Assembly: GCF_000687145.1 (NCBI RefSeq)
Contig: NZ_JMFG01000008.1
Span: forward strand, 26,045 to 90,044
Reading direction: 5' to 3'
Length of the DNA: 64,000 bases
From: Thermoanaerobaculum aquaticum
GTDB lineage: Bacteria; Acidobacteriota; Thermoanaerobaculia; Thermoanaerobaculales; Thermoanaerobaculaceae
Numbering within the stretch: position 1 is the stretch's first letter; every line of letters begins with the position of its first letter. Under the pieces are notes generated by a model. That model did no database searches, had not been told where the DNA came from, and worked only from the letters and a program-made list of their open reading frames with translations. Shown piece after piece: positions 1,076 to 55,639 of the stretch. The position numbers and the translations under genes are program-made.

Positions 1076-3880
1076 CTAGTCCATCCGTAGGGTGATCCCA
1101 AGGACCCGAACTTTTGTCACCCAGAATGTGCCAGGTGACGTTTCGCGAACCACTGCTCCATAGACCGTTCCAAAGGTGTCCGTTTCGACGACAAGTTCAA
1201 AAGCTAGCTCCCGCGCACCTGCAACGAGATCTTCCGGCCAAGGGAAGGAGTTGTTTTCCATGCTGGAGGCCCCTGTTCCTCCAGTTTTTTGGCGCACAGT
1301 GATCCGCGGCATGCCCAACGGCCCTGCCCTGGTCCCAAACTCAAGAAGCTCCTTCTCGGTCAAAACGATTACGGCGCTTCCCGGAACCTCGAACTCAAGG
1401 TGGCGCGGCCAAACCACGATCGCCGGTACATTGAGCGGCAAGAAAACGAAGAACTCCTTGAGCAGAGCTTTGACAGCGACGTCCTCGACGGTAGCCGCCC
1501 GGGAATTGCAGTTGGCGCACCAATCGTCCCCGTCGTAAATCCCGTCGCCGTCCGAATCGCGGGCGTCAGGCTTCAGGCCAAGGCGGCGCTCGAGTAGGTC
1601 AGTCAGCCCATCACCGTCAGTATCTTTGCCCAGCTCGAGCCAGCTCACAGCCGTGCAAGGCGCACCGTTGGCCGCCTCCTGCCAGCTCTCCGAGTTCTCC
1701 GACGTGCGTTCGGTTTCGCCTCCAGAATTGTCAGCACCCTCGAGCGGGCAAATGGCTAGCGATTCCGAGGTAATTTCCACCCGAAAACGCGCTCGACCTT
1801 CGTGAGCGTCAAAAACTGGTACCGAAAGCCCTGTAAAGCGCGGAGCCTGAAGGGCTTCGCCTTGCAACCGCGTAAGCCAGAGATCATGCGCTCCCCCGGC
1901 AAAGCTGGAGAAAAAAAGGAGATATTCTTGCCCTTCGTGTGCAACGCGGCGAGCTCCTCGCTGATCAAGAATCTTCGAATCGAAACCCGGGGCCGGACAT
2001 GTGCCCTCTCTGCACACCCGGAAAATTTCGTCCACCAAATGCGAATCCACCTCCCGATCCGGCGCCAGGAGTTGAGCCAGGACACGCGGCGGCTCTGGCC
2101 TGAAGCACTTTCCCCGGGGGAATTTCCGCAATCGCTTCGCCACCAAAGTTTCCAAATGTTCCAAAAGCTCCGAGTTACCTATTGACGCGACGCAACCGGA
2201 GGCGGTGAGCGCCACCCAGGGGTCGGCAGCTGGGTGCTCGGCCACCCTAAGGAGAACATCGCCCATGGAATCGGTAAGACCAAGCTGTTGCAAAGCAACC
2301 AACAGTTGGCTGAAAAACTCGCTGTCCCGGACTAGACTTTGCGGCCGTGCAACCTCCTTTTTGATCCATTCCAGGAGGTACGCTGTCGCTTTTTCCTTAC
2401 GCCAGCTCGCCAGGACTTTTGCGGAAGCCAACAAGGCTACAGGGCCGAGTCCCGGCAGACGCTCGGCAAGGAGAGGACCGATGTCCGATCCAAGACGATA
2501 CAAGGAGGCCTCTAGTTGGGCGGATCGTTGCTTGCTGACCTCATCGCAGCATGGCCAAGCGTTGGCTTCACGTAACAGCTCCAACGCCGTCCGCCAGCGC
2601 TCAGGCAACGCAGCTTGGGGGACCGGCTGCAAGCCCTTGAGCAAAACCCGCCTCGCCGTTTGGAAAAGCCAGCCCCCCGGGACCTGCCAAAACGCAGATG
2701 TCCCGAGGACTCCGTGAAACCCCTCCACCACGCGGCCCTCGCCGTCTAGTACCAAAAGGAAATCCGTTTGAGTTGTGGAAAACGCAACGGCAATACCCCT
2801 GTCATGGGGCGCCGCGATGGGAAACGAGTATTGGGGAAGCTCGTAGCACCAGGCATACTTTCCCTGCTCCCCCGACCGTTTGCAGAGCCTCTGCCTTGAA
2901 TAGTAACCCTCCCAAAGCTCAAACCCCTTGCTCGCCCACTTCGGCAAAAATTCATCCCCGCCCAGCTCCACCTCGGGGCCCAGCGTCCCGTCAACATGGA
3001 GCGGAAACCAGTGGCCACAATCCGCAAGGCCGTTAAGACAGCGCTTTACCCATGCACCTGAAGGGAGCACCTCGAGACGCACCAGCCCCGGTACCCTGAC
3101 CCGCCAGCGGGATCGCCAGTTGCCTCCGCCTATAAATCCAAGCTCAGCACCTTCCACCGTCCATGTATGCACAAGTATCCCGTCCAACCACGAAAAGCAC
3201 AGATCGACCTCGCCAGGGACAAACACCTGGCCTCTAATCCCACCGGTGGAAGCTTCGAGGAAGCTGACGAGCTCTGGCCTTCCAGGGGCGGAGTCGTCAA
3301 CAAGGCCGCTAACCAGCACAAGGGGATTCAACGAGGCCACCCGCTCCCCGTGGGAGAGAACCTTACTCCAGCGAATGCTCCCATTTCGGGGGTCGAAAGC
3401 CATGAGTAAAGCGTCGGTTTTCAGCAAGCCCACGTTGCCTACCATCTCGAGTTTCGAAATGGGAGGCCCCTCCCTTTCTGGAAGCGGGATTTCCCATACG
3501 GGCTCGCCGTCGGCGACCCTCAAGGCACGAAGAGAATGGGTAGCACCGAACAACTCGCAAATAACTACCTCTTCTTCCAGCATACACGTCGAAATCGTGC
3601 TGCCCTCGGGAGCCGCCCATTCCCACACCGTCGGGAGAAAAAGCAGCTTGCCGACCGGGGGGATCGGCAAGGGGGGAACAGATTGGGCGAGGGCGGGAAA
3701 ACAGAAAGCGGCCAACGCAAAGGCTTTCGCAAACCAACGAGCCTCAATCCAGTGAGCGAATATCCTGAGAATCTTGCTCCCTCCAATCCGACCCCTGCGC
3801 TCCACGTAAGGGGAACTCGCTTCGAGAGAGTCTAGAGCGCCCGGAAGAGGTCCCCACACACGCCACCTCAGCCGCTTCAC
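1076..3880 (-). CDS. Secreted protein: PQQ-type propeller, HEAT-like helices, calcium-binding repeats
   Basis: The product is 934 residues if it starts at GTG 3880-3878. A hydrophobic stretch ending in PALAQS (about 48-66) looks like a signal peptide, but it lies unusually far from this start, so the true start may be further in; GGAGGG precedes an ATT codon near 3772. Residues about 85-410 have the repeating W/G pattern of a PQQ-like beta-propeller. Residues about 430-600 look like HEAT-type helical repeats. Residues about 752-792 hold two thrombospondin-3-like calcium loops (DTDGDGLTD, DSDGDGIYDGDD) followed by CANC. A C-terminal beta-rich domain ends the chain. It is probably periplasmic or extracellular; its role is unknown. 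The neighbours give no functional hint. Confidence 0.75.
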   Translation of the reverse strand: MKRLRWRVWGPLPGALDSLEASSPYVERRGRIGGSKILRIFAHWIEARWFAKAFALAAFCFPALAQSVPPLPIPPVGKLLFLPTVWEWAAPEGSTISTCMLEEEVVICELFGATHSLRALRVADGEPVWEIPLPEREGPPISKLEMVGNVGLLKTDALLMAFDPRNGSIRWSKVLSHGERVASLNPLVLVSGLVDDSAPGRPELVSFLEASTGGIRGQVFVPGEVDLCFSWLDGILVHTWTVEGAELGFIGGGNWRSRWRVRVPGLVRLEVLPSGAWVKRCLNGLADCGHWFPLHVDGTLGPEVELGGDEFLPKWASKGFELWEGYYSRQRLCKRSGEQGKYAWCYELPQYSFPIAAPHDRGIAVAFSTTQTDFLLVLDGEGRVVEGFHGVLGTSAFWQVPGGWLFQTARRVLLKGLQPVPQAALPERWRTALELLREANAWPCCDEVSKQRSAQLEASLYRLGSDIGPLLAERLPGLGPVALLASAKVLASWRKEKATAYLLEWIKKEVARPQSLVRDSEFFSQLLVALQQLGLTDSMGDVLLRVAEHPAADPWVALTASGCVASIGNSELLEHLETLVAKRLRKFPRGKCFRPEPPRVLAQLLAPDREVDSHLVDEIFRVCREGTCPAPGFDSKILDQRGARRVAHEGQEYLLFFSSFAGGAHDLWLTRLQGEALQAPRFTGLSVPVFDAHEGRARFRVEITSESLAICPLEGADNSGGETERTSENSESWQEAANGAPCTAVSWLELGKDTDGDGLTDLLERRLGLKPDARDSDGDGIYDGDDWCANCNSRAATVEDVAVKALLKEFFVFLPLNVPAIVVWPRHLEFEVPGSAVIVLTEKELLEFGTRAGPLGMPRITVRQKTGGTGASSMENNSFPWPEDLVAGARELAFELVVETDTFGTVYGAVVRETSPGTFWVTKVRVLGITLRMD

Positions 3881-3959
3881 AGTTTAAACAATAACACACG
3901 CTTCCCCCAGGAAATAGCTCTGGTCAAAACGATGGTTTAGCCGGGAGCGCAGTTTCTTG

Positions 3960-4008
3960 GAAGATTTCCCAAGTGGTGTGCGGAACCGGTTTTTGGGAAG
4001 CAATCTTC
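3960..4008. repeat. Interrupted inverted repeat
   Basis: GAAGATTTCCCAA (3960-3972) pairs with TTGGGAA (3993-3999) plus ATCTTC (4003-4008), leaving a three-base bulge. The 20-base loop contains the palindrome AACCGGTT. It sits between two divergent promoters and could be a regulator site or an RNA structure. I recognise no family. Confidence 0.45.
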
Positions 4009-4252
4009 GAGTTCCTCTCAAAAACGCAAAGAACTGCGCTCAGTTTTTCGAAAAGAAAAGCTCGTCCCAAGCTGACGTCCGAGCGGAACCGTGGAGCCGC
4101 ACTGGTTTTAGCTGCGCGAGGGGGATACCCCTTGAGAAGCCGATGACACGCCGAAGGCAAGGCTGGAAAAACCCAGTTCTGGGTCCGCTTGCGATTCACC
4201 GCTTTCGTTACTGGGAAGGGGTAGGTGAGTGAGTCGAAGCTAGCAAATCCCG

Positions 4253-4258
4253 TACAAT
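4253..4258 (+). promoter_or_regulatory. Putative -10 box of a leaderless tolQRAB transcript
   Basis: TACAAT lies exactly six bases before the tolQ ATG (4265). No Shine-Dalgarno motif precedes that ATG. A start site seven bases after the box would fall on the start codon. No good -35 is visible at 16-18 bases. Confidence 0.5.
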
Positions 4259-4264
4259 GCCCCC

Positions 4265-4936
4265 ATGCAGGCGATTTGGGAGGCGTTCGCGCAAACGGGG
4301 CCGGTGGCCAAGCTGGTGCTGGCGATCCTTGCCGGCTTTTCCCTGGTTTCCTGGACGCTGATGCTCTTGAAGGTCCGCCAGCTCCGCCGTGCGGAAAGGC
4401 AAAACCAGGTTTTCCTTAGCGAGTTCCGCAAGGCCCAGAGGCTGGGGGAGGTGCAGCAAGCTGCTGCCAAAACCCCCCATGCGCCGCTGGCGGGGATGTT
4501 CCGGGCTGGCTACCTGGAGCTGGAGGCGCAGGTGCGGGTACTGCAGCGGGCCGGGGCTCCTCCAGGGCAAATCAAGAGTCTGGCCGCGGTGGAGCGGGCG
4601 TTGCAGCGGGCCATTGGCGTGGAGTCCGCCAAGCTGCACCGCTTTTTGCCGTTTTTAGCCACCACCGCTTCGGCCACGCCGTTCATCGGGCTTTTTGGTA
4701 CCGTATGGGGGATCATGACCGCCTTCCGGGACATCGCCGCCAAGGGCTCCACCTCCATTGTGACGGTCGCCCCCGGCATTGCCGAAGCGCTGGTGAACAC
4801 AGCGGCCGGCCTGGCCGCTGCCATCCCCGCGGTCATTGCTTATAACGCTTTTCTGGGAAGCCTCCGCCGCCACCGGGGGGTGATGGAGGACTTCCTTCTG
4901 GAGTTTCTAAACCTCACCGAACGAACGTTTACCTAG
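4265..4936 (+). CDS. tolQ: TolQ/ExbB-type proton channel subunit
   Basis: The 223-residue product has the MotA/TolQ/ExbB layout: a first membrane segment at about 13-36, a cytoplasmic stretch, then two membrane helices at about 130-153 and 172-196. The [15 protein letters not shown] and [18 protein letters not shown] signatures that line the proton path are intact. With TolR it uses the proton-motive force to drive the TonB/TolA-like protein and keep the outer membrane attached during division. It is the first gene of tolQ-tolR-tolA-like-tolB. TolQ and ExbB differ little in sequence; the TolB at the end of the operon decides for Tol. Confidence 0.93.
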
Positions 4937-8049: not shown

Positions 8050-10761
<2,712 letters not shown>

Positions 10762-10774
10762 GGCCAAACCCTCC

Positions 10775-12847
10775 TTAGCTTGCTACCTGCAGTTTGGAAA
10801 CATCGGCAAGCTGCAGGAACAGCCGTTGTATCTTTGCCAAAAGCCCCAACCTCGCTTGCCGCAGCTCCACATCCGGGCACATCACCAAAACGTCGGTGAA
10901 AAACCGATCCAGCGGCTCTGCCAGGCCCGCCAAAAGGGCCAGCGCCTGGCCCCACGCCTTGGCAGTGGCAAGCCGGCCCAGCTCCTCCTCCATACCGGCC
11001 ACCTGGTTGGCTAAAGCCTTTTCCGCGTCTTCTAATAGCCTTTCCGGCGCCCAGGTGCCTTCCCCTTCCTTGCCCACCATGTTGCGCACCCGCTTAAACG
11101 CCGTGGCCAGCTGCACAAACTGCGGGGTTTGCCAGAGGGAAGCCAAAGCCTGGCCCAAGGCCAGCTCGTCCGCCGGCATCCCCCAGCGGGCGGAAAGCAC
11201 GGCATCTGCCACCGGGCCGGGGAGCCCTTTTGATTCCAGGAAAAACCGCTCCCTTTCCCGCAAAAAGCCCGCAAGCTCCGTAACACCGGCCCCGCCGAAG
11301 GGTGCCGCCGCCCAGGAAGCTGCCTCGGGCAGCGAAAGGCTTAAAGGAAACTCCCCGCAAATCCGCACCACGCTCAGGGCGTGCCGGCGTAAGGCAAAGG
11401 GGTCCTTGCTGCCGGTGGGGATCTCCCCTACGGAAAAAAGCGCCGCCAAGGTGTCCAGGCGGTCCGCCACGCCCAAAAGAGCGCCGGTGAGGCTTTTGGG
11501 GATGGCCCCCTCTTGCCCTGCCGGCAGGTACTGCTCGGCAATGGCCTGCCAAACTTCCGGAGCGTGACCCTGCTTTTGGGCGTAAATGCCGCCCATGACT
11601 CCCTGCAGCTCGGGGAATTCCCCCACCATGTGGCTTGCCAGGTCGGCCTTGGCCAGGCGGGCCGCGGTTTGCAGGGGGCCACGCAGCTCGGCAAAGCCCA
11701 AAGCTTCGGCCAGCTGCACCACCAGCGCTTCCACCCGTTTGGCTTTGTCGGCGTAGCTTCCCAACTTGGCGTGGAAAGCCACACGGGTGAGCTTTTCCGC
11801 CATGGCCTCCAAAGGGTTTTGCAAATCCTGGTGGAAGAAGAAGTGGGCATCGGAAAGCCGTGCCCCCGCCACCCACTCGTTGCCCTGCCGCACGTGCCCC
11901 TGGGGATCATCGGGGCGATCGCACACCGCCAAAAAGTACGGCGCCACCCTGCCGTCCTTCTCCAGCACCAAGCACTTCTGGTGATGGCGCAGGGTAGTGA
12001 CGATCACCTCTTCCGGCAGGGAAAGCCAAGCGGAATCCAGCTCCCCGCGCACCAGACCCGGGAACTCCACCAGCTCCACGTGCTCCTCTTCCAGAGCCGG
12101 GTCCGGCCGCACCTGGCAACCCACTTCCGAAGCCAGCTCCCCCGCCTTTTGCCGGAAAAGCGCCCGCCGCCGGGAGGGGTCCAGCTCCACACCGGCCTGG
12201 CGCAAGCGCTGGAGGTAGCCCTCCAGGTCTCGCACCCCGGAAAGCAGCACCTCCCCCGGGTGCGTGACCCTGTGCCCCAGGGTGGCCGCGCCGCTGGGCA
12301 CACCAAAGATGGAAAAGCCCACCACCTGGTCCAAGGAATCAAGGCCCCAAAGCGCCACCACGCGGTGCACCGGCCGCACAAAGACGTACTGCCCTTCCCC
12401 CCAGCGCATGGTCTTGGGGAAGTGCAGGCTGGAAACCACCGCCGGCACGATCTCGGCGAGAAGCTCGGGAAGGGCCCGCCCCGGAACGTGTTTTTTGGCA
12501 GCCACCACCTTGCCCTTGGGCCCCTCCACCACCTGCAGCTCGGAAGGAGCAACGCCCTGGGCCCGGGCAAAACCCTCCCCCGCCCGGGTGAGCGATCCAT
12601 CGGGGGCAAAGGCCACGGAGGCCGGCGGCCCGAAAACCTCCTCCACCCGCGCCGGTGTTTCCGCGGGCAACCCCTCCACCCAGAGGGCCAGCCGCCGGGA
12701 GGTGGAAAAGCCCAAAGGCCGGGACGCAGTAACGCCGGCTTCATCGAGCTTGGCGGCCAACCCGGCAACCAGCTGCTCCCGCGCTTCCGGCAAGGCGTTG
12801 GCGGGGATTTCCTCGCACAAAAGCTCAAACAGGAACTTCCCGCTCAC
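10775..12847 (-). CDS. glyS: Glycyl-tRNA synthetase, beta subunit
   Basis: The beta chain of the bacterial alpha2beta2 glycyl-tRNA synthetase; it recognises tRNA-Gly. The chain starts with [18 protein letters not shown], the usual N-terminus of GlyS, so I place the start at GTG 12847-12845, which overlaps the glyQ stop as GTGA. This gives 690 residues, the normal length. A longer open frame upstream overlaps glyQ and is not real. The C-terminus has the anticodon-binding (DALR-like) helices with FFTDVLVM. Confidence 0.95.
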
Positions 12848-13779
12848 GCTGCACCCCCGGAAAGCAAGGGAAAGCCTGCCCTTTTTCGCTGCTCTACGTA
12901 CGCTTTTGCGGTGGCTACCGCCAGCTTGCGCACCCGGGCAATCATCGCCACGCGCTCGGTGGTGGAAACCGCACCCCGGGCGTCCAGGAGGTTGAAGAGG
13001 TGCGACATCTTGAGGGCTGCTTCCAAAGCCGGGATAACCAAGGGGTCGTCGCCCTCCAGGCAGCGAAAGCCCTCCCGCTCCCAGTCCTCGAAGTGGCGCC
13101 GGAGCATGCTCACGTCCGCCTGCTGGAAGGCGTAGCGGGAAAGCTCCACCTCGTCCCGGTGGCGAACCGCGCCGTAAGGCACCCCGGAAACCCACTCCAC
13201 CTCGTAAATGGAGGTTTTCCGCTGCAAGAACATGGCAATGCGTTCCAAACCGTAGGTGATTTCCGCAGAAATGGGCTTGAGGTCCAAACCTCCGGCCTGC
13301 TGGAAATAGGTGAACTGCGTTATTTCCATGCCGTCCAGAAGCACCTGCCAGCCCACGCCCCAGGCCCCCAGGGTGGGAGACTCCCAGTTGTCCTCTTCAA
13401 ACCGCACGTCGTGCACCGCCGGGTCAATCCCCAGCACCTGGAGGGAGCGCAGGTAAAGCTCCTGAACGTCGGCGGGGGAAGGCTTCAGGATCACCTGCAG
13501 CTGCAGGTGCTTGCCCAAGCGGAAGGGGTTTTCGCCAAAGCGCGCGTCGGCCGGCCGCCGTGAGGGCTGCACGTAGGCCACCCGGTAGGGCTCAGGACCC
13601 AAAACCCGCAGGAAGGTTTCCGGATGCATGGTGCCGGCACCCACCTCCATGTCGTAGGGCTGCTGCACCAGGCACCCCTGCTCCCCCCAAAAGCGCAGCA
13701 GGTTCAAAATGACCGCTTGCAGTTCCAAAGCCACCTCGCCCGTCCCGCGTGCGCGGGCACCGAAGGCGGAGTTTAGCAC
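12844..13779 (-). CDS. glyQ: Glycyl-tRNA synthetase, alpha subunit
   Basis: The alpha chain carries the catalytic class II core. [25 protein letters not shown] and [17 protein letters not shown], the hallmark of GlyQ, are intact. I report GTG 13779 (311 residues). A second GTG at 13734 would give 296 residues, also normal; neither has a good Shine-Dalgarno. It is translationally coupled to glyS by a four-base overlap. The gene lies downstream of tRNA-Pro on the same strand. Confidence 0.93.
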
Positions 13780-48569: not shown

Positions 48570-50546
48570 ATGAGCACCCGCAGCCACTGGCAGCTTAAAG
48601 CCGCAAGCTTCTTGATGGTGGCTATGGTGTCCTGGGCGCAAGAGGGCGCGGATGAACTGACCTCTCTAAGCTACATCTCGTACCTTGAACGGTACGCCAC
48701 CCTCAAACCCGCCACCCAAGGGGAAACCCTGGATGCGGTGGTGAACATGCCGGTGCTCCCCGGGGACCGGGTGGAAACCGCCCGCGGCGCGCGCCTGGAA
48801 ATTCAACTTTCCGACGGCTCCACGGTTTGGCTCGACCAGTTCACCACCGTGGACTTTGACAGCATCGCCAAAAGCCGCGGTTATTCGGCCCCGCGCACGG
48901 CCCTCTACCTGGCCGCCGGTGGGATTGCCGTGGAGGTAGCCGCGGAAGCCGCATCGGTACGGGTGGACTCTCCCGCCGGCACCGTTTACCTTGCCCGGGG
49001 CGGCCTGTACCGCCTGCAGCTGGATGGGGACCAGCTCAAGGTGGCTGCCCACCGGGGTTCCGCAGAGCTCCCGGCAGGGATGGGCTCGGTCTTGCTACGG
49101 GCAGGTTTTGCCGCCTGGGTTGCCGACAACGAGGAGCTCCAGCGGGTGGAATGGAGCGGCGATAGCGACGATTTCTGGCAGTGGGTCTTGGAGCGCCGCA
49201 TGCCCCCCAGCCAATCCCCCACAACCCGCTACGTGCAGGGGGCTCCGCGGGCCTACGTCCTGGACACCTACGGAGAATGGGTGTACTTGACCGACCTCTC
49301 GGCCTGGGGTTGGCGGCCGCGGGTGAGCGTCACCTGGGTTCCTTACTCCTACGGCCGTTGGTACTGGACGCCCGCGGGCTGGTGTTGGGTTTCCTACGAA
49401 CCGTGGGGCTGGTACCCCTACCACTACGGCTCCTGGTACTTTTCCGTAAGCTTCGGCTGGGTTTGGTTTTACGACCCAGTTTGGGCCCCGGCGTGGGTTC
49501 ACTGGGTTTACACCCCCGGGTATGTGGGCTGGTGCCCCCGGGGGTATTACGACTGGTGGTGGTGGAAACAAGGGCATCATCACTACGATCGGCCGCACCG
49601 GTGGTCGGAAGTGAGCTTCGATTTTTCAGGACGGGTTCGCCTAGGGCACATTGATCACCGGCCCTGGACCTTCGTCCCCGAGGATCGCTTTACCTCATCC
49701 CATATTGAGCGGGTTCGGCTGGATCCCGGCCGGATCATCCGCTCCATCGGCGACCGCGAAGCCATCGTGCGCTCGGGGCCTCTGGTGGGACCCGCACCGC
49801 GAGACCTTGGGCGACCGGCGGAGCTCCGCGAGCTGTTCCGCGACCAGGCACCCCGGGAGGTTACAAACTACCTCCGGCGTGAGACGCGTGGTCCAGCGGA
49901 TAACGACGTGTCCCCCCTGCCGTTAACGCGCACCTCAGAAGCGGTGCGTTTGGCCAGGCCTTTCCCCGTCCGCCCCTCCGACGGAGGGGATGAAGCGCGC
50001 CCACGGACCGAGCCTTCTTTCTCCCGCGGACGTCAACCCGGCGCTGATACCTCCAGGCCCTCCGGAAGGGAGCCGGACGTCACCCGGTTGCCGGACCGAC
50101 GCCGGGAGCCGGAAAGGGTGGAGCAACCGGAGCGCACCTCTCGTCCCCCATCCTCCTGGCAGCCGCGGGTGCCTCGCCCCGAAGCCCCAGAGGTTCCCAG
50201 GGCTCCAAGCCGGCGGGAAAACCTCGTGCCTCGCCCCTCGCCCGATTCCTCCGAGTCCTGGCGGTGGGAACAACCCCGCTTCTCTGCCCCGGATCGCTCC
50301 GCACCGCCAGCTTCCCCCCAGCCGCGCCAGATCATCCCCAGGGAAAGCCCTCGCCTGCGGGAAATCCCCGCCGAACCCGCCCCCAGGACCCGCTCCAGCT
50401 TCCCCTCCAGCCCGCCTTCAGGGGTGAGCAGACCACAATCCCCGCCGCGAGAGAACATAGCGCCACGCAGCCCCGCAAGCAGCGCCCCGCGCTCGGAAGG
50501 CCAGGCGCCCCGCGGAAGACCCCACGCCGATCGTCCCCGGCATTGA
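48570..50546 (+). CDS. FecR-domain protein with W/Y-rich (DUF6600-like) region and P/R-rich tail
   Basis: A 658-residue secreted protein. A signal peptide (about 1-24) leads to a FecR domain (about 57-177; NMPVLPGDRVETARGARLEI), then a striking Trp/Tyr-rich stretch (about 230-345; WVPYSYGRWYWTPAGWCWV), then a Pro/Arg/Ser-rich disordered tail. FecR-domain proteins can bind surface glycans or sense ligands. It lies 47 bases downstream of the hexapeptide gene, behind GGGAGG. The function is unknown. Confidence 0.82.
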   Translation: MSTRSHWQLKAASFLMVAMVSWAQEGADELTSLSYISYLERYATLKPATQGETLDAVVNMPVLPGDRVETARGARLEIQLSDGSTVWLDQFTTVDFDSIAKSRGYSAPRTALYLAAGGIAVEVAAEAASVRVDSPAGTVYLARGGLYRLQLDGDQLKVAAHRGSAELPAGMGSVLLRAGFAAWVADNEELQRVEWSGDSDDFWQWVLERRMPPSQSPTTRYVQGAPRAYVLDTYGEWVYLTDLSAWGWRPRVSVTWVPYSYGRWYWTPAGWCWVSYEPWGWYPYHYGSWYFSVSFGWVWFYDPVWAPAWVHWVYTPGYVGWCPRGYYDWWWWKQGHHHYDRPHRWSEVSFDFSGRVRLGHIDHRPWTFVPEDRFTSSHIERVRLDPGRIIRSIGDREAIVRSGPLVGPAPRDLGRPAELRELFRDQAPREVTNYLRRETRGPADNDVSPLPLTRTSEAVRLARPFPVRPSDGGDEARPRTEPSFSRGRQPGADTSRPSGREPDVTRLPDRRREPERVEQPERTSRPPSSWQPRVPRPEAPEVPRAPSRRENLVPRPSPDSSESWRWEQPRFSAPDRSAPPASPQPRQIIPRESPRLREIPAEPAPRTRSSFPSSPPSGVSRPQSPPRENIAPRSPASSAPRSEGQAPRGRPHADRPRH

Positions 50547-50664: not shown

Positions 50665-50694
50665 TTGGCAAGGCCTTCTTCAGTTTGCTATACA
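50665..50694 (+). promoter_or_regulatory. Leaderless promoter of the membrane-protein gene
   Basis: TTGGCA (50665-50670) and TATACA (50689-50694) are 18 bases apart. The ATG at 50701 follows six bases later. No Shine-Dalgarno is present. Confidence 0.55.
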
Positions 50695-50700
50695 GTGCCT

Positions 50701-52212
50701 ATGAGGTTTTGCTCAAAGTATTTTTGGGTACTCATCTCCCCAACCTTAATTTTTTTACTGTTTGCCCGGGTCTTTTCGTTTTCCCTCATGGGGGACGATT
50801 TCCAGCTTCTCCAGCATGTTCACCAGGCACTCCATCAACCTCGCTTGCTGGTAAGTGACTTCGACACGTCTTACCGCCCCACCACAATTTGGACGTTGGC
50901 CCTGGACCGTCTTCTTTGGGATCGCTGGGCAGGGGGCTTTCACCTGCAGAGTGTGCTGCTGCACAGTATTGTGGCGTGTGCGTTGGTTCTGGTTGGTGCG
51001 AAACTAGGATTGTCCAAACCCGTTTCCCTTGCCCTTGGCCTGCTTTGGGGCTTATCGCCGTTTGCGTCCGAAACAGCTACGCTGGTTTCCAGCCGTTTCG
51101 ATGATCTTCTCCTTTTGTGCTGGTTTTGCCTAGTTTTGGCCTGGCCGCGCCCGGGGATGCGCAGCCACCCATGGCTTCTGGCTCTGCTAACGGTGCTGGC
51201 CATGCTCAGCAAGGAAACGTGGGTGGTGACCCCGGTTCTCGTTTTCGCGCTGGCCTGGGGGTTTGCCCGGGATTCGCTGGCCGCAAGCTTCAAAAAAGCC
51301 CTGGTCTTTTTCGCCGGGGCTTTGCTGTACGTTGGGATTTATTTCCTCTGCTTTCCGGGAGACAAGAACTACTTCCGCTACGACCTCCGGGTGCTGGCCA
51401 AGGTGCCCCACAGCTTGGCCTCCTTTTTGCACCTGGAACAACCGGTGCCTCTGGAGTTTCCGTTCACGCTTCGTGGGGGCCTGGCCACTGTGGTGGTGCT
51501 TTTGTTGGTGGTTTTAGCGGTGAAAACCCGTCATCCGGCAGGGATTTTCGGTGCCAGCTTGCTTTTTGCGCCCATGCTTCCCACCCTGCTCGTGCCCTAC
51601 CAGCCCTCCCGCTACTTGGTTGCCCCGTACGCTGGCTTTCTTCTCCTGATTTTGGCGAGCCTTGCCGTCTTCTTCCAGAAGTTGGGAGAACGCAGCCGCC
51701 GGATTGCCAGCGTGGCAGCAGGCTTCGTGGGTTTTCTGGTGCTCCTCGCCCACGTTTTTACCGTGCGGGCGGACCTACGGGATTGGGCCCGCGTTTCCGA
51801 CGCCCATGCCCGGCTCGTAAGACAGGCCGAGGCGGTTGCCGGTGAGTTTCCCCTGGATCGCCCGGTGGCGGTGGTCCGCGCCGACGGCACCAACGTGCTC
51901 CGGGATATTGCCCTTTCGGTGGAAGGGTGGCCCAAGCTCTTTTACGTTCGCGGCAGCGATCCGGCCGGGCTCATTGACGCCGCCGCGCTCTTCGAGTGGG
52001 TGCTCCACCGGGAAGACCTGCAAGTCAGGCCTGTTCCGGAGTCACCGGGATCCCTGAACCGCCGGGGAGCGGTGCTGCTTTACACCCGCGACGGGTTTCG
52101 GTGGGTGAGCAGGGACGAACCCAACCTCCGGGTGGCGGTGGAAGCCTGGCGCGGGCGTGGCTTTCCGGTGCGGGTCATCGAGGTGCGCCCACTCCCCCGG
52201 TTAACCCTCTAA
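50701..52212 (+). CDS. Multi-spanning membrane protein, glycosyltransferase-like
   Basis: A 503-residue protein with about ten membrane helices (to about residue 365) and a soluble C-terminal domain of about 140 residues. The loop FSLMGDDFQLLQHVHQAL between the first two helices has acidic residues as in ArnT/PMT (GT-C) sugar transferases. I therefore infer a polyprenyl-phosphate-dependent glycosyltransferase, without proof. The stop overlaps the asnB stop by four bases. Confidence 0.7.
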   Translation: MRFCSKYFWVLISPTLIFLLFARVFSFSLMGDDFQLLQHVHQALHQPRLLVSDFDTSYRPTTIWTLALDRLLWDRWAGGFHLQSVLLHSIVACALVLVGAKLGLSKPVSLALGLLWGLSPFASETATLVSSRFDDLLLLCWFCLVLAWPRPGMRSHPWLLALLTVLAMLSKETWVVTPVLVFALAWGFARDSLAASFKKALVFFAGALLYVGIYFLCFPGDKNYFRYDLRVLAKVPHSLASFLHLEQPVPLEFPFTLRGGLATVVVLLLVVLAVKTRHPAGIFGASLLFAPMLPTLLVPYQPSRYLVAPYAGFLLLILASLAVFFQKLGERSRRIASVAAGFVGFLVLLAHVFTVRADLRDWARVSDAHARLVRQAEAVAGEFPLDRPVAVVRADGTNVLRDIALSVEGWPKLFYVRGSDPAGLIDAAALFEWVLHREDLQVRPVPESPGSLNRRGAVLLYTRDGFRWVSRDEPNLRVAVEAWRGRGFPVRVIEVRPLPRLTL

Positions 52213-54032
52213 CCCCACCGGGAAAGCCAGTGCTCCAGGGTGAGGAGCGTAAACACCGCCCGGGCGTGGCGTGGGGGATCGGCTACAGCTAATTTGCTAA
52301 GGGTTTTGGCCAAAGGCCCCATACGCAAGAAACCACGCAGGGAGCACCGCGGATCGTGTAACACCCGTTGCACTTCCCCGACCCAGGGTCCAGCCAGCCA
52401 CTGGCGAAGCGGCGGCTCAAACCCCCTCTTGGGACCCCGTCGTACCTCCGTGGGAAGAAGCCCGCGGGTAGCCCGGCGCAGCAAGCGCTTGGTGCGGAAG
52501 GGCGATAGCAAGAGCTTGGGGGGAACGGTGAGCAAGAAGCGCACCACCTCCTGATCCAGGAAAGGCGACCGCGCCTCCAGGGAACAGGCCATGGTGGCGC
52601 GGTCCATTTTTACCAGCAAATCTCCAGGCAAAAAGAAGAAAAGCTCAAGGGCACGCAAGCGGTTGACCGCTGAATCTTCCGGCGCCTGCGCCAGAACCCG
52701 GTGGAAAGAAGCCAAATTCGGCTCCCGACCCAAAAACGATGCCACTTCCCCGGGTGTAAACTTCACCGGCCCCCAAGCCAAATACCCCCCGGTGGGATCT
52801 CTCAGCCCCTCACGAAACCGCCGGGATAGCCACGGCTTGCCAGAAACCAGCCCCAAAGCGGCCAGTCCCGCCGCCAACGCCCACCGGGTCGGCAGCCTTT
52901 CCGCCGCAGCTGCCAGGAGGAAGCGGCGATAGCCAGCTAAAAGCTCGTCTCCGCCGTCCCCGTTGAGCACCACTTTCACCGCGGCCGAGGCGGCTTGCGC
53001 CACAAAATAGGTGGGGACCACCGAGGGGTCGGCCAAAGGCTCATCAAAGACCTCCGCCAGTTTGGGGAGAAGCTCAGGGCTCGGCGCCCCCTCCCCGGGA
53101 AGCACGTCCAGAGGCAAACCCAGGCTTGCCGCGGTGGCCAAGGCCCGGTGCTTTTCACCGGCATCACCTAAATCCACGAACAAAAGCTTGGGCTCCTCCC
53201 CAAGCCGCCGGGCAAGCGCCGCAATGCTCGCGGAATCCAAACCACCCGACAAGAACACCGCCACCGGCACATCGGCGCGCAACCGCAACGCGGTCGCCTC
53301 GGCCAAAAGCTCCACCAAGCGCTGAGCTGCGTCTTCCTCGCTGAGCGTGGGATCCGGGGAAAACTCAAAGGTGGAGTAACAGCCGCTACGGATTTCTCCG
53401 GTGGGAATGTCCAGTTCCAGCCAATGCCCGGGCGGGAGCTTTTCCACCCCCCGCACAAAGCAGCTCCCCTCGGGGACAAAGCCGAAAGTTAAAAACGCCT
53501 CCAGGGCCGGAGGGTCCACCACCCAGGATTGGGCAAAGGGCCGGAGCGCCTTTAGCTCGGAAGCAAAAAAGAGCCCCCCGTGGGAGCGCATCCAGTACAG
53601 CGGCTTTTTGCCCAATCGGTCCCGGGCCAAAAAGAGCTTTTGCGTACGCTCATCCACAACCGCCAGGGCGAACATCCCCCGAAGGTGCGAGAGCAGAGCC
53701 TTCCCGTGCTCCTCCCAAAGGTGGGCCAAAAGCTCGGTGTCCCCCGAGGAGCGGAGGCGGTGCCCATGGCCCCGCAGCTCCTCCTGCAGCTCCCGGTAGT
53801 TGTAAATCTCGCCGTTGAGCACCACATGAATGGTGCCGCTCTCGTTCCTCACCGGTTGGTCCCCGGCCACCAAATCCACGATGGCCAGGCGACAAGCCCC
53901 AATCCCCCATCCCGGGCCTGACACAAAGCCGGTGGCATCGGGACCCCGATGGCGCAAAAGGGCGAGGGCCCTCTCCGCATCCCGGGAGGAGCACACCACT
54001 CGGCTGCCGGCGTAGCCAAAGATCCCGCACAT
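52209..54032 (-). CDS. asnB: Asparagine synthase (glutamine-hydrolysing)
   Basis: A 607-residue two-domain enzyme. The N-terminal Ntn-type glutaminase starts MCGIFGYAG with nucleophile Cys2 and has RHRGPDATG and LNGEIYNYREL. The synthetase domain has the ATP loop FLSGGLDSASI. It converts Asp to Asn, or, in the wider family, amidates other acids. It diverges from the aminotransferase-fold gene across 62 bases with a palindrome. Confidence 0.93.
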   Translation of the reverse strand: MCGIFGYAGSRVVCSSRDAERALALLRHRGPDATGFVSGPGWGIGACRLAIVDLVAGDQPVRNESGTIHVVLNGEIYNYRELQEELRGHGHRLRSSGDTELLAHLWEEHGKALLSHLRGMFALAVVDERTQKLFLARDRLGKKPLYWMRSHGGLFFASELKALRPFAQSWVVDPPALEAFLTFGFVPEGSCFVRGVEKLPPGHWLELDIPTGEIRSGCYSTFEFSPDPTLSEEDAAQRLVELLAEATALRLRADVPVAVFLSGGLDSASIAALARRLGEEPKLLFVDLGDAGEKHRALATAASLGLPLDVLPGEGAPSPELLPKLAEVFDEPLADPSVVPTYFVAQAASAAVKVVLNGDGGDELLAGYRRFLLAAAAERLPTRWALAAGLAALGLVSGKPWLSRRFREGLRDPTGGYLAWGPVKFTPGEVASFLGREPNLASFHRVLAQAPEDSAVNRLRALELFFFLPGDLLVKMDRATMACSLEARSPFLDQEVVRFLLTVPPKLLLSPFRTKRLLRRATRGLLPTEVRRGPKRGFEPPLRQWLAGPWVGEVQRVLHDPRCSLRGFLRMGPLAKTLSKLAVADPPRHARAVFTLLTLEHWLSRWG

Positions 54033-54094: not shown

Positions 54095-55180
54095 ATGGAG
54101 TTCTCCGCCATCTTTCCCATCCGCGAGCGCTGCCTTTACCTGGACCACGCCACCCTTGCCCCCCTGCCGCAGCCGGCGGTGGCCGCCGTTGGCGAAGCGC
54201 TGAGGCTCTACCAGCAGGAAGGTTTTTGGCAGTCGCGGGAGCTCAACCAGCTGGACCAAAAGGTCCGCATGCTGGTGTCGCAAATAGCAGGGTGTCAGCC
54301 CAGCGACGTGAGCCTTTTCCCCGATGCTGCCACGGCGCTGGCGGCCCTTTTTGCCGGGCTAGACCTTCCCCCAGGCACCGAGTTTTTTCTCACCGCAGAA
54401 GATCCCGACGAGGCCCGCTCCCTGGTCCTGCTCCTTCAGCGGTTGGGACGCCCTGCCACCCTCCTGGAGCCGGCCCGATGGGCACAGCTCGCTCACATTC
54501 TCGAGGCCAGGGCACCAGAACGCGCTGTGGTTTACCTCCCCTGGGTGGATGCTGCGGGGTGGGTGGGAGATTTTCCCGCCGTGGCCAAGGAGCTCAAGGC
54601 CCGGGGGTGCTTGGTGGTTCTGGACGGCAGCCAGGCCGTGCCCTGTCGGCCCGAAAGCTTTCCCGAACTGGAGGTGGAGGCGCTCTTGCTGCCCAGCCAC
54701 ACCTGGCTTTTGGGCCCGCAGGGGGCTTGCTCCTTGATCACCACGCCAGAACTGCGGGAACGCTGGCACCCCGTCTTTTCCCCCTGGCGTAAGCCTCTGG
54801 CCGAGGGCGCCAGCGACGCGGCGTGCTTTGAAGGCCAGGGTGTTTCCCCTCTTGTTTTGGCCGGCTGGGCGACAAGTTTGGAGTTGATCTTGGCCGAAGG
54901 CCTGGTGGCCGTGCGAAACCGCATCTTTGCCCACCAGCGGACCATGACCTCCTTTCTCCTCCAGCTGGGCTGGAACGTGGCCTCTCCGGGGGCCTCACAA
55001 CCAGTGGCCGGCATCGTTTTGGCCCAGCATCCGTTCTTTCCTGCCGAGGAAGTCCAGCGGCGCTTGCAAGCGCGGCACGTGCGGGTAGGCACCCTCGGTT
55101 CGTGGGTGCGCTTTTCCCCTCACTTTTACACCACCCTCGCCGAGCTGGACGCCCTCCAGAAGATCCTGAGCTCACTCTAG
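54095..55180 (+). CDS. Class V aminotransferase-fold protein lacking the PLP lysine
   Basis: A 361-residue protein with the fold of cysteine desulfurases: it starts LYLDHATLAPLP, where family members have a YLD/N.A..G..P pattern, and has VVLDGSQAVPC with the Asp-x-x-Gln that holds the cofactor. The lysine that should bind PLP is missing: relatives have a HKWLLGP-type motif, but here the segment reads SHTWLLGPQGA with Thr203 (codon ACC, 54701-54703). Asp and Gln are kept, so loss of the Schiff base is specific. It may be a pseudoenzyme. A TATACT box precedes it by nine bases. Confidence 0.82.
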   Translation: MEFSAIFPIRERCLYLDHATLAPLPQPAVAAVGEALRLYQQEGFWQSRELNQLDQKVRMLVSQIAGCQPSDVSLFPDAATALAALFAGLDLPPGTEFFLTAEDPDEARSLVLLLQRLGRPATLLEPARWAQLAHILEARAPERAVVYLPWVDAAGWVGDFPAVAKELKARGCLVVLDGSQAVPCRPESFPELEVEALLLPSHTWLLGPQGACSLITTPELRERWHPVFSPWRKPLAEGASDAACFEGQGVSPLVLAGWATSLELILAEGLVAVRNRIFAHQRTMTSFLLQLGWNVASPGASQPVAGIVLAQHPFFPAEEVQRRLQARHVRVGTLGSWVRFSPHFYTTLAELDALQKILSSL

Positions 55181-55560: not shown

Positions 55561-55639
55561 TGGCGGGGCTGGCCGGACTCGAACCGGCGACACGCGGTTT
55601 AGGAAACCGCTGCTCTATCCGTTACTGAGCTACAGCCCC
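55561..55639 (-). tRNA. tRNA-Arg(CCT)
   Basis: On the minus strand the acceptor GGGGCTG (55639-55633) pairs with CAGCCCC (55571-55565), followed by discriminator G and encoded CCA (55563-55561). The anticodon stem GCGGT/ACCGC holds TTCCTAA, so the anticodon is CCT, an arginine codon reader (AGG). The T arm is GCCGG-TTCGAGT-CCGGC. It lies 51 bases downstream of the acylphosphatase gene. Confidence 0.95.

Follow-up and report, generated by a model that had tools for sequence, protein, structure and literature searches.

What becomes of a PLP enzyme once its lysine is gone? PLP enzymes are recognised by this lysine, and its natural loss under selection is uncommon. The question is raised by a gene in a stretch of 64,000 nucleotides from the hot-spring bacterium Thermoanaerobaculum aquaticum (hereafter the window, in whose positions coordinates are given), which encodes a protein with threonine at the Schiff-base position. 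A preliminary description, made from the sequence alone, had presented the product as a cysteine-desulfurase-like pseudoenzyme, otherwise full length, with a new binding or regulatory role perhaps tied to the divergent asnB gene.

A full-length gene with an incomplete active site

The open reading frame is intact, running from an ATG at 54095 to a TAG stop at 55178-55180 and encoding 361 amino acids. The features that concern the active site, all on the forward strand, are the following.

54095..55180, + strand: lysine-less class V aminotransferase-fold protein, 361 aa (Pfam Aminotran_5, 1.7e-11; AlphaFold2 pLDDT 91.6)
54623..54634, + strand: D177-G-S-Q180, cofactor-holding Asp and Gln, kept (both invariant in 64/64 aligned relatives)
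54692..54700, + strand: P200-S201-H202, preceding Thr203 (position 200 altered in every Thr form)
54701..54703, + strand: codon of Thr203 (ACC), at the position of the Schiff-base lysine (Thr in 3/3 genus members)
54788..54826, + strand: residues 232-244, about 10 residues fewer than in Lys-bearing orthologs (alignment)
55109..55111, + strand: Arg339, kept (invariant in 64/64 relatives)

Thr203 lies in the motif SHTWLLGP and aligns with K223 of the L-cysteine/L-cystine C-S lyase C-DES; in the alignment with PDB entries it stands opposite HKW in 1elq and opposite HAW in 1n2t, the engineered K223A mutant. The reading frame, this alignment and the orthologs within the genus thus agree in placing a threonine where the PLP lysine is expected, as had been proposed. 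The kept Asp and Gln of VVLDGSQA had likewise been described correctly: D177 and Q180, together with H202, W204 and R339, are invariant across all 64 aligned relatives, Thr forms included. Arg339 aligns with the Arg that precedes S-x-H-x-Y in class V lyases, a residue that in this family holds the substrate carboxylate.

The rest of the pocket, which is described here from alignments, has fared less well. Among 96 columns that are invariant in the 24 Lys-bearing members of the order on which they were defined, 31 are altered in all three Thermoanaerobaculum proteins. About 10 residues following W231 are absent in the genus, and the corresponding region 232-244 is the weakest part of the structural model (block mean pLDDT of 62 for residues 231-240). 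The EEF of Lys-bearing orthologs has become ED-, EE- or EQ-, so that the ring-stacking aromatic is gone (the residue that packs on the PLP ring is His, or in this family Phe/Tyr), and FHTG has become DAAG, or DALG in one member. Further alterations affect T78, which aligns with the Thr of the phosphate cup in SufS, position 106, and position 200, an Asp in Lys-bearing orthologs. The gene is therefore full length, as the preliminary description had it, but the protein is not otherwise intact.

A nearby lysine taking over the role of the lost one can be rejected. Of the five lysines of the window protein, K56 alone recurs in the other genus members, and Lys-bearing orthologs have a different residue there; the two Thr proteins of a sister family, L020 and L028, have one lysine each, at unrelated positions.

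Fold and family assignment

The window protein scores 44.2 bits against Pfam PF00266 (Aminotran_5; gathering cut-off 21.5). The Thr forms of the genus lie between 40 and 46 bits, those of the sister family between 149 and 172 bits, and two Lys-bearing orthologs reach 153 and 182 bits. AlphaFold2 modelling predicts an intact fold, of PLP fold type I (pLDDT 91.6). The model matches C-DES with a VIA Z of 40.5 (rmsd 2.4 over 359 residues) and PvdN with a Z of 38.9; the wild type and the K223A mutants of C-DES tie as top fold match (Z 40.4-40.5). A Lys-bearing ortholog modelled in the same way (pLDDT 94.9) is closer to C-DES than the window protein is, with a Z of 46.2.

C-DES and PvdN are also the nearest solved relatives by sequence, and PvdN (5i90, 5hh9) is the best match in both Foldseek and phmmer. 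Both differ from the window protein: PvdN is a periplasmic, pyoverdine-tailoring PLP enzyme with its Lys, while C-DES, at 20% identity, is an active enzyme that has the Lys and a stacking His. SufS and IscS have the superfamily and the fold in common with the window protein, which however has neither the Lys nor their catalytic Cys loop. The profile alignment lacks the stretch of about 13 residues that carries HHC in 5b7s, and there is no Cys at the corresponding place before the C-terminal R-x-S-x-H-x-Y region. The score against NCBIfam sufS (21.5 bits, cut-off 475) falls below the cut-off, and that against NCBIfam PvdN (27.7, cut-off 650) far below. The name cysteine desulfurase is accordingly too specific.

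Distribution of lysine and threonine

One strong ortholog is carried by 34 of 37 Thermoanaerobaculales genomes. Threonine occupies position 203, within SHTWLLGP, in all three Thermoanaerobaculum genomes, whose proteins are 61-74% identical, with the codons ACC, ACG and ACC; in the other Thermoanaerobaculaceae, every ortholog whose site was readable has Lys, in the motif HKW. The change is thus fixed at the level of the genus. The presence of Thr in three diverged genomes, with two different codons, also disposes of a read error at 54701-54703, which the preliminary description had proposed to check: two further genus assemblies independently give Thr, and an error of sequencing or assembly can be regarded as practically excluded.

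In a column of 110 aligned rows, in which some genomes appear twice, 103 have Lys and 7 have Thr. Outside the genus, HTWLLGP recurs in two proteins of the sister family, L020 (genome G020) and L028, which equals L048 (genome G018). The tree requires three Lys-to-Thr changes; a single origin of all five Thr forms is rejected (AU p = 0.015), and one origin for both sister-family forms gives an AU p of 0.16. A parallel, independent change has therefore taken place in the sister family. The preliminary description had counted Lys-bearing orthologs against a pseudoenzyme; they exist outside the genus, but do not speak against one, since Thr is fixed within the genus and has arisen separately elsewhere.

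L020 and L028 are each altered at only four of the 96 invariant columns, three of which, D200, K203 and G212, they have in common. The genus is altered at the same three positions, so that positions 200 and 212 have changed wherever the lysine was lost. Across the 396 genomes of the phylum that were searched at the DNA level, the pattern HTWLL[GA]P[EQ]G matched only within the three Thr lineages, although it misses the second genus member, whose motif differs at one more residue. The wider pattern HxWLL[GA]P[EQ]G gave 14 matches with Lys, 3 with Thr and 2 odd ones (Cys and Leu), possibly due to chance. It is tempting, if doubtful, to see in a Lys-to-Thr change that arose twice or three times in the order, with positions 200 and 212 altered too, a repeatable route from a PLP enzyme to a ligand-binding protein independent of the PLP aldimine, or to a new lysine-free catalyst.

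Orthology and selection

In Lys-bearing genera of the family the gene order is SpoIIE, hexapeptide protein, FecR, the divergent asnB, the class V gene, an FAD oxidoreductase and an ABC transporter; the first four of these, from SpoIIE to asnB, are neighbours of the window gene as well. A second member of the ortholog group was not found in any of the three genus genomes; the next class V gene in T. aquaticum lies in a suf operon and encodes an ordinary, Lys-bearing SufS. The conserved locus and the single copy disfavour a paralog or a transferred copy.

52209..54032, - strand: asnB, glutamine-hydrolysing asparagine synthase, divergent neighbour of the class V-like gene (Pfam; NCBIfam asn_synth_AEB, above cut-off; synteny)

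The divergent asnB pair is present in the three genus members and in four genomes of Lys-bearing genera (G003, G004, G005 and G010). The arrangement is therefore older than the loss of the lysine, and asnB can be neither its cause nor the special partner that the preliminary description had suggested.

The Thermoanaerobaculum stem branch amounts to 1.75 changes per site. The window protein is 37% identical to its orthologs in other genera, as against 69% among the other genera. The corresponding values differ little for the neighbours (asnB 53 and 58%, hexapeptide protein 64 and 71%, SpoIIE 66 and 73%, FAD oxidoreductase 61 and 60%), so that the class V-like protein has been accelerated alone among the genes compared. 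Within the genus, dN/dS is 0.13-0.22, values that are rough because synonymous divergence is near saturation, and 138 of the 194 residues identical in the three genomes use different codons. Acceleration on the stem followed by low dN/dS and synonymous codon change suggests that the protein took on a new role and was then constrained, rather than that the gene decayed. Indeed, a gene heading for loss, which the long stem and the many lost invariant columns might suggest, is very unlikely in view of the reading frame kept intact in three diverged species, the low dN/dS and the conserved residues maintained through synonymous change. The pseudoenzyme of the preliminary description is borne out to this extent: the Lys-to-Thr change is fixed in the genus, the protein is full length and under purifying selection, and no other lysine substitutes.

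What the lysine-less protein may do

We consider it fairly probable, judging from sequence comparisons, that the window gene encodes a maintained pseudoenzyme: an ortholog still in its original place that lost the PLP lysine on the stem of the genus and acts by binding a ligand in a half-kept pocket. The ancestor would have been a PLP enzyme of class V aminotransferase fold, of a kind that occurs across the order. On the Thermoanaerobaculum stem, the lysine was lost along with other parts of the active site, after which purifying selection maintained the gene, probably as a pseudoenzyme. The protein could presumably no longer form the internal aldimine and hence would not be a normal PLP enzyme. 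It might still bind a small ligand, such as an amino acid, PLP or PMP, or a PLP-amino-acid adduct, through Asp177, Gln180, His202 and Arg339, and its function would then lie in binding, whether as a sensor or as a partner subunit, instead of in PLP lyase or transferase chemistry. With T78, the stacking aromatic and position 106 altered, the protein may have ceased to bind the cofactor at all, and a structural role is conceivable for the Asp, Gln and Arg that it retains.

Alternatively, the protein may be a lysine-free enzyme that holds PLP or PMP non-covalently and leaves proton transfers to a different side chain, perhaps that of His202. Within the superfamily, sugar dehydratases that depend on PMP have His in place of the Lys. 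The retention of D177, Q180, H202 and R339 in the Thr forms agrees with this explanation, as does the existence of C-DES K223A structures in which PLP is still present as an adduct with an amino acid. The sister-family Thr forms, otherwise canonical both in their invariant columns and in their Aminotran_5 scores, would fit catalysis kept without Lys. However, Thr is not a plausible acid/base stand-in for Lys, and the genus lacks the aromatic stacker, T78 and the residues after W231, and has low Pfam scores. For the window protein we regard a lysine-free enzyme as unlikely; non-covalent catalysis would be a possibility mostly for the sister-family forms.

It is also improbable, to about the same degree, that the protein is a structural or regulatory subunit pairing either with a further class V protein, for instance SufS, or with some other enzyme. 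The high-confidence prediction of an intact fold and the intact SufS encoded elsewhere in the genome would be compatible with such a pairing. On the other hand, the genome yielded no close Lys-bearing paralog, which speaks against a heterodimer with a member of the same ortholog group, and no class V gene adjoins the window gene at its locus.

The maintained pseudoenzyme that we favour may be compared with several known systems. LCB1 of serine palmitoyltransferase and the alpha subunit of glycine decarboxylase are Lys-less subunits of PLP fold type I. They too have lost the PLP lysine naturally, but each is paired with a Lys-bearing paralog, whereas in T. aquaticum no such paralog from the present ortholog group was found. 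In C-DES, the engineered K223A exchange (1n2t, 1n31) parallels the natural K-to-T change. Closest in kind is Rv3778c of Mycobacterium tuberculosis, which, as far as the account in PMC12910592 (2026) extends, is a class V, cysteine-desulfurase-related protein without the PLP lysine, expressed, presumably non-catalytic and possibly functional; it belongs to a distant bacterium, and the likeness is one of description. Rv3778c was the sole case of a Lys-less class V pseudoenzyme that our literature searches turned up, and by this precedent the kind of protein is already known. What seems new here is that, within an order, a single ortholog has exchanged Lys for Thr at the same position repeatedly, with positions 200 and 212 changing in step.

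T. aquaticum and its closest relatives keep the lysine-less gene under selection, and this retention, together with at least one separate loss in a related family, points to a repurposed protein rather than a broken gene. The order offers intermediate Thr forms (in the sister family) and advanced ones (in Thermoanaerobaculum) alongside Lys-bearing orthologs; those of the family share the locus of the Thermoanaerobaculum gene. It thus provides a direct comparative series for following the loss of the catalytic lysine from a PLP enzyme and the fate of the protein afterwards.

The FAD oxidoreductase and other neighbouring genes

In the Lys-bearing contigs of the family that were examined, the FAD gene lies directly 3' of the class V gene and is followed by the ABC transporter gene, as in the two examples below.

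L118:8239-9540 and 9560-11425: FAD oxidoreductase and ABC transporter
L146:4308-5588 and 2477-4269: FAD oxidoreductase and ABC transporter

In both T. aquaticum and G002, these two genes are together on a contig other than that of the class V-like gene; they became unlinked from it on the stem branch on which the lysine, too, was lost. In the sister family, a match to the FAD gene was not found at 1e-30. The best NCBIfam relatives of the FAD oxidoreductase, all below their cut-offs, are the halogenase CmlS and the maturases QhpG, LodB and GoxB. The pairing of a flavoprotein with an ABC transporter recalls quinone-cofactor maturation genes, and may serve as a lead.

Most Lys-bearing genera also encode, between FecR and either asnB or the class V gene, a protein of about 290 amino acids with no Pfam match (L120:5258-6124), of which no counterpart was detected at the Thermoanaerobaculum locus. 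In its place, the window has a protein of 515 amino acids (50665-52212), likewise with no Pfam match. The second genus genome has two reading frames matching the latter (L114:10605-13668, at 10605-12116 on the - strand and 12166-13668 on the + strand), possibly the result of a duplication. The FecR protein of the window (48570-50546), which occupies the same place family-wide, combines FecR and DUF6600; its middle is rich in Trp and Tyr, its tail in Pro and Arg. Just downstream of the class V-like gene lies a tRNA-Arg (CCT) gene, at 55561-55639 on the - strand.
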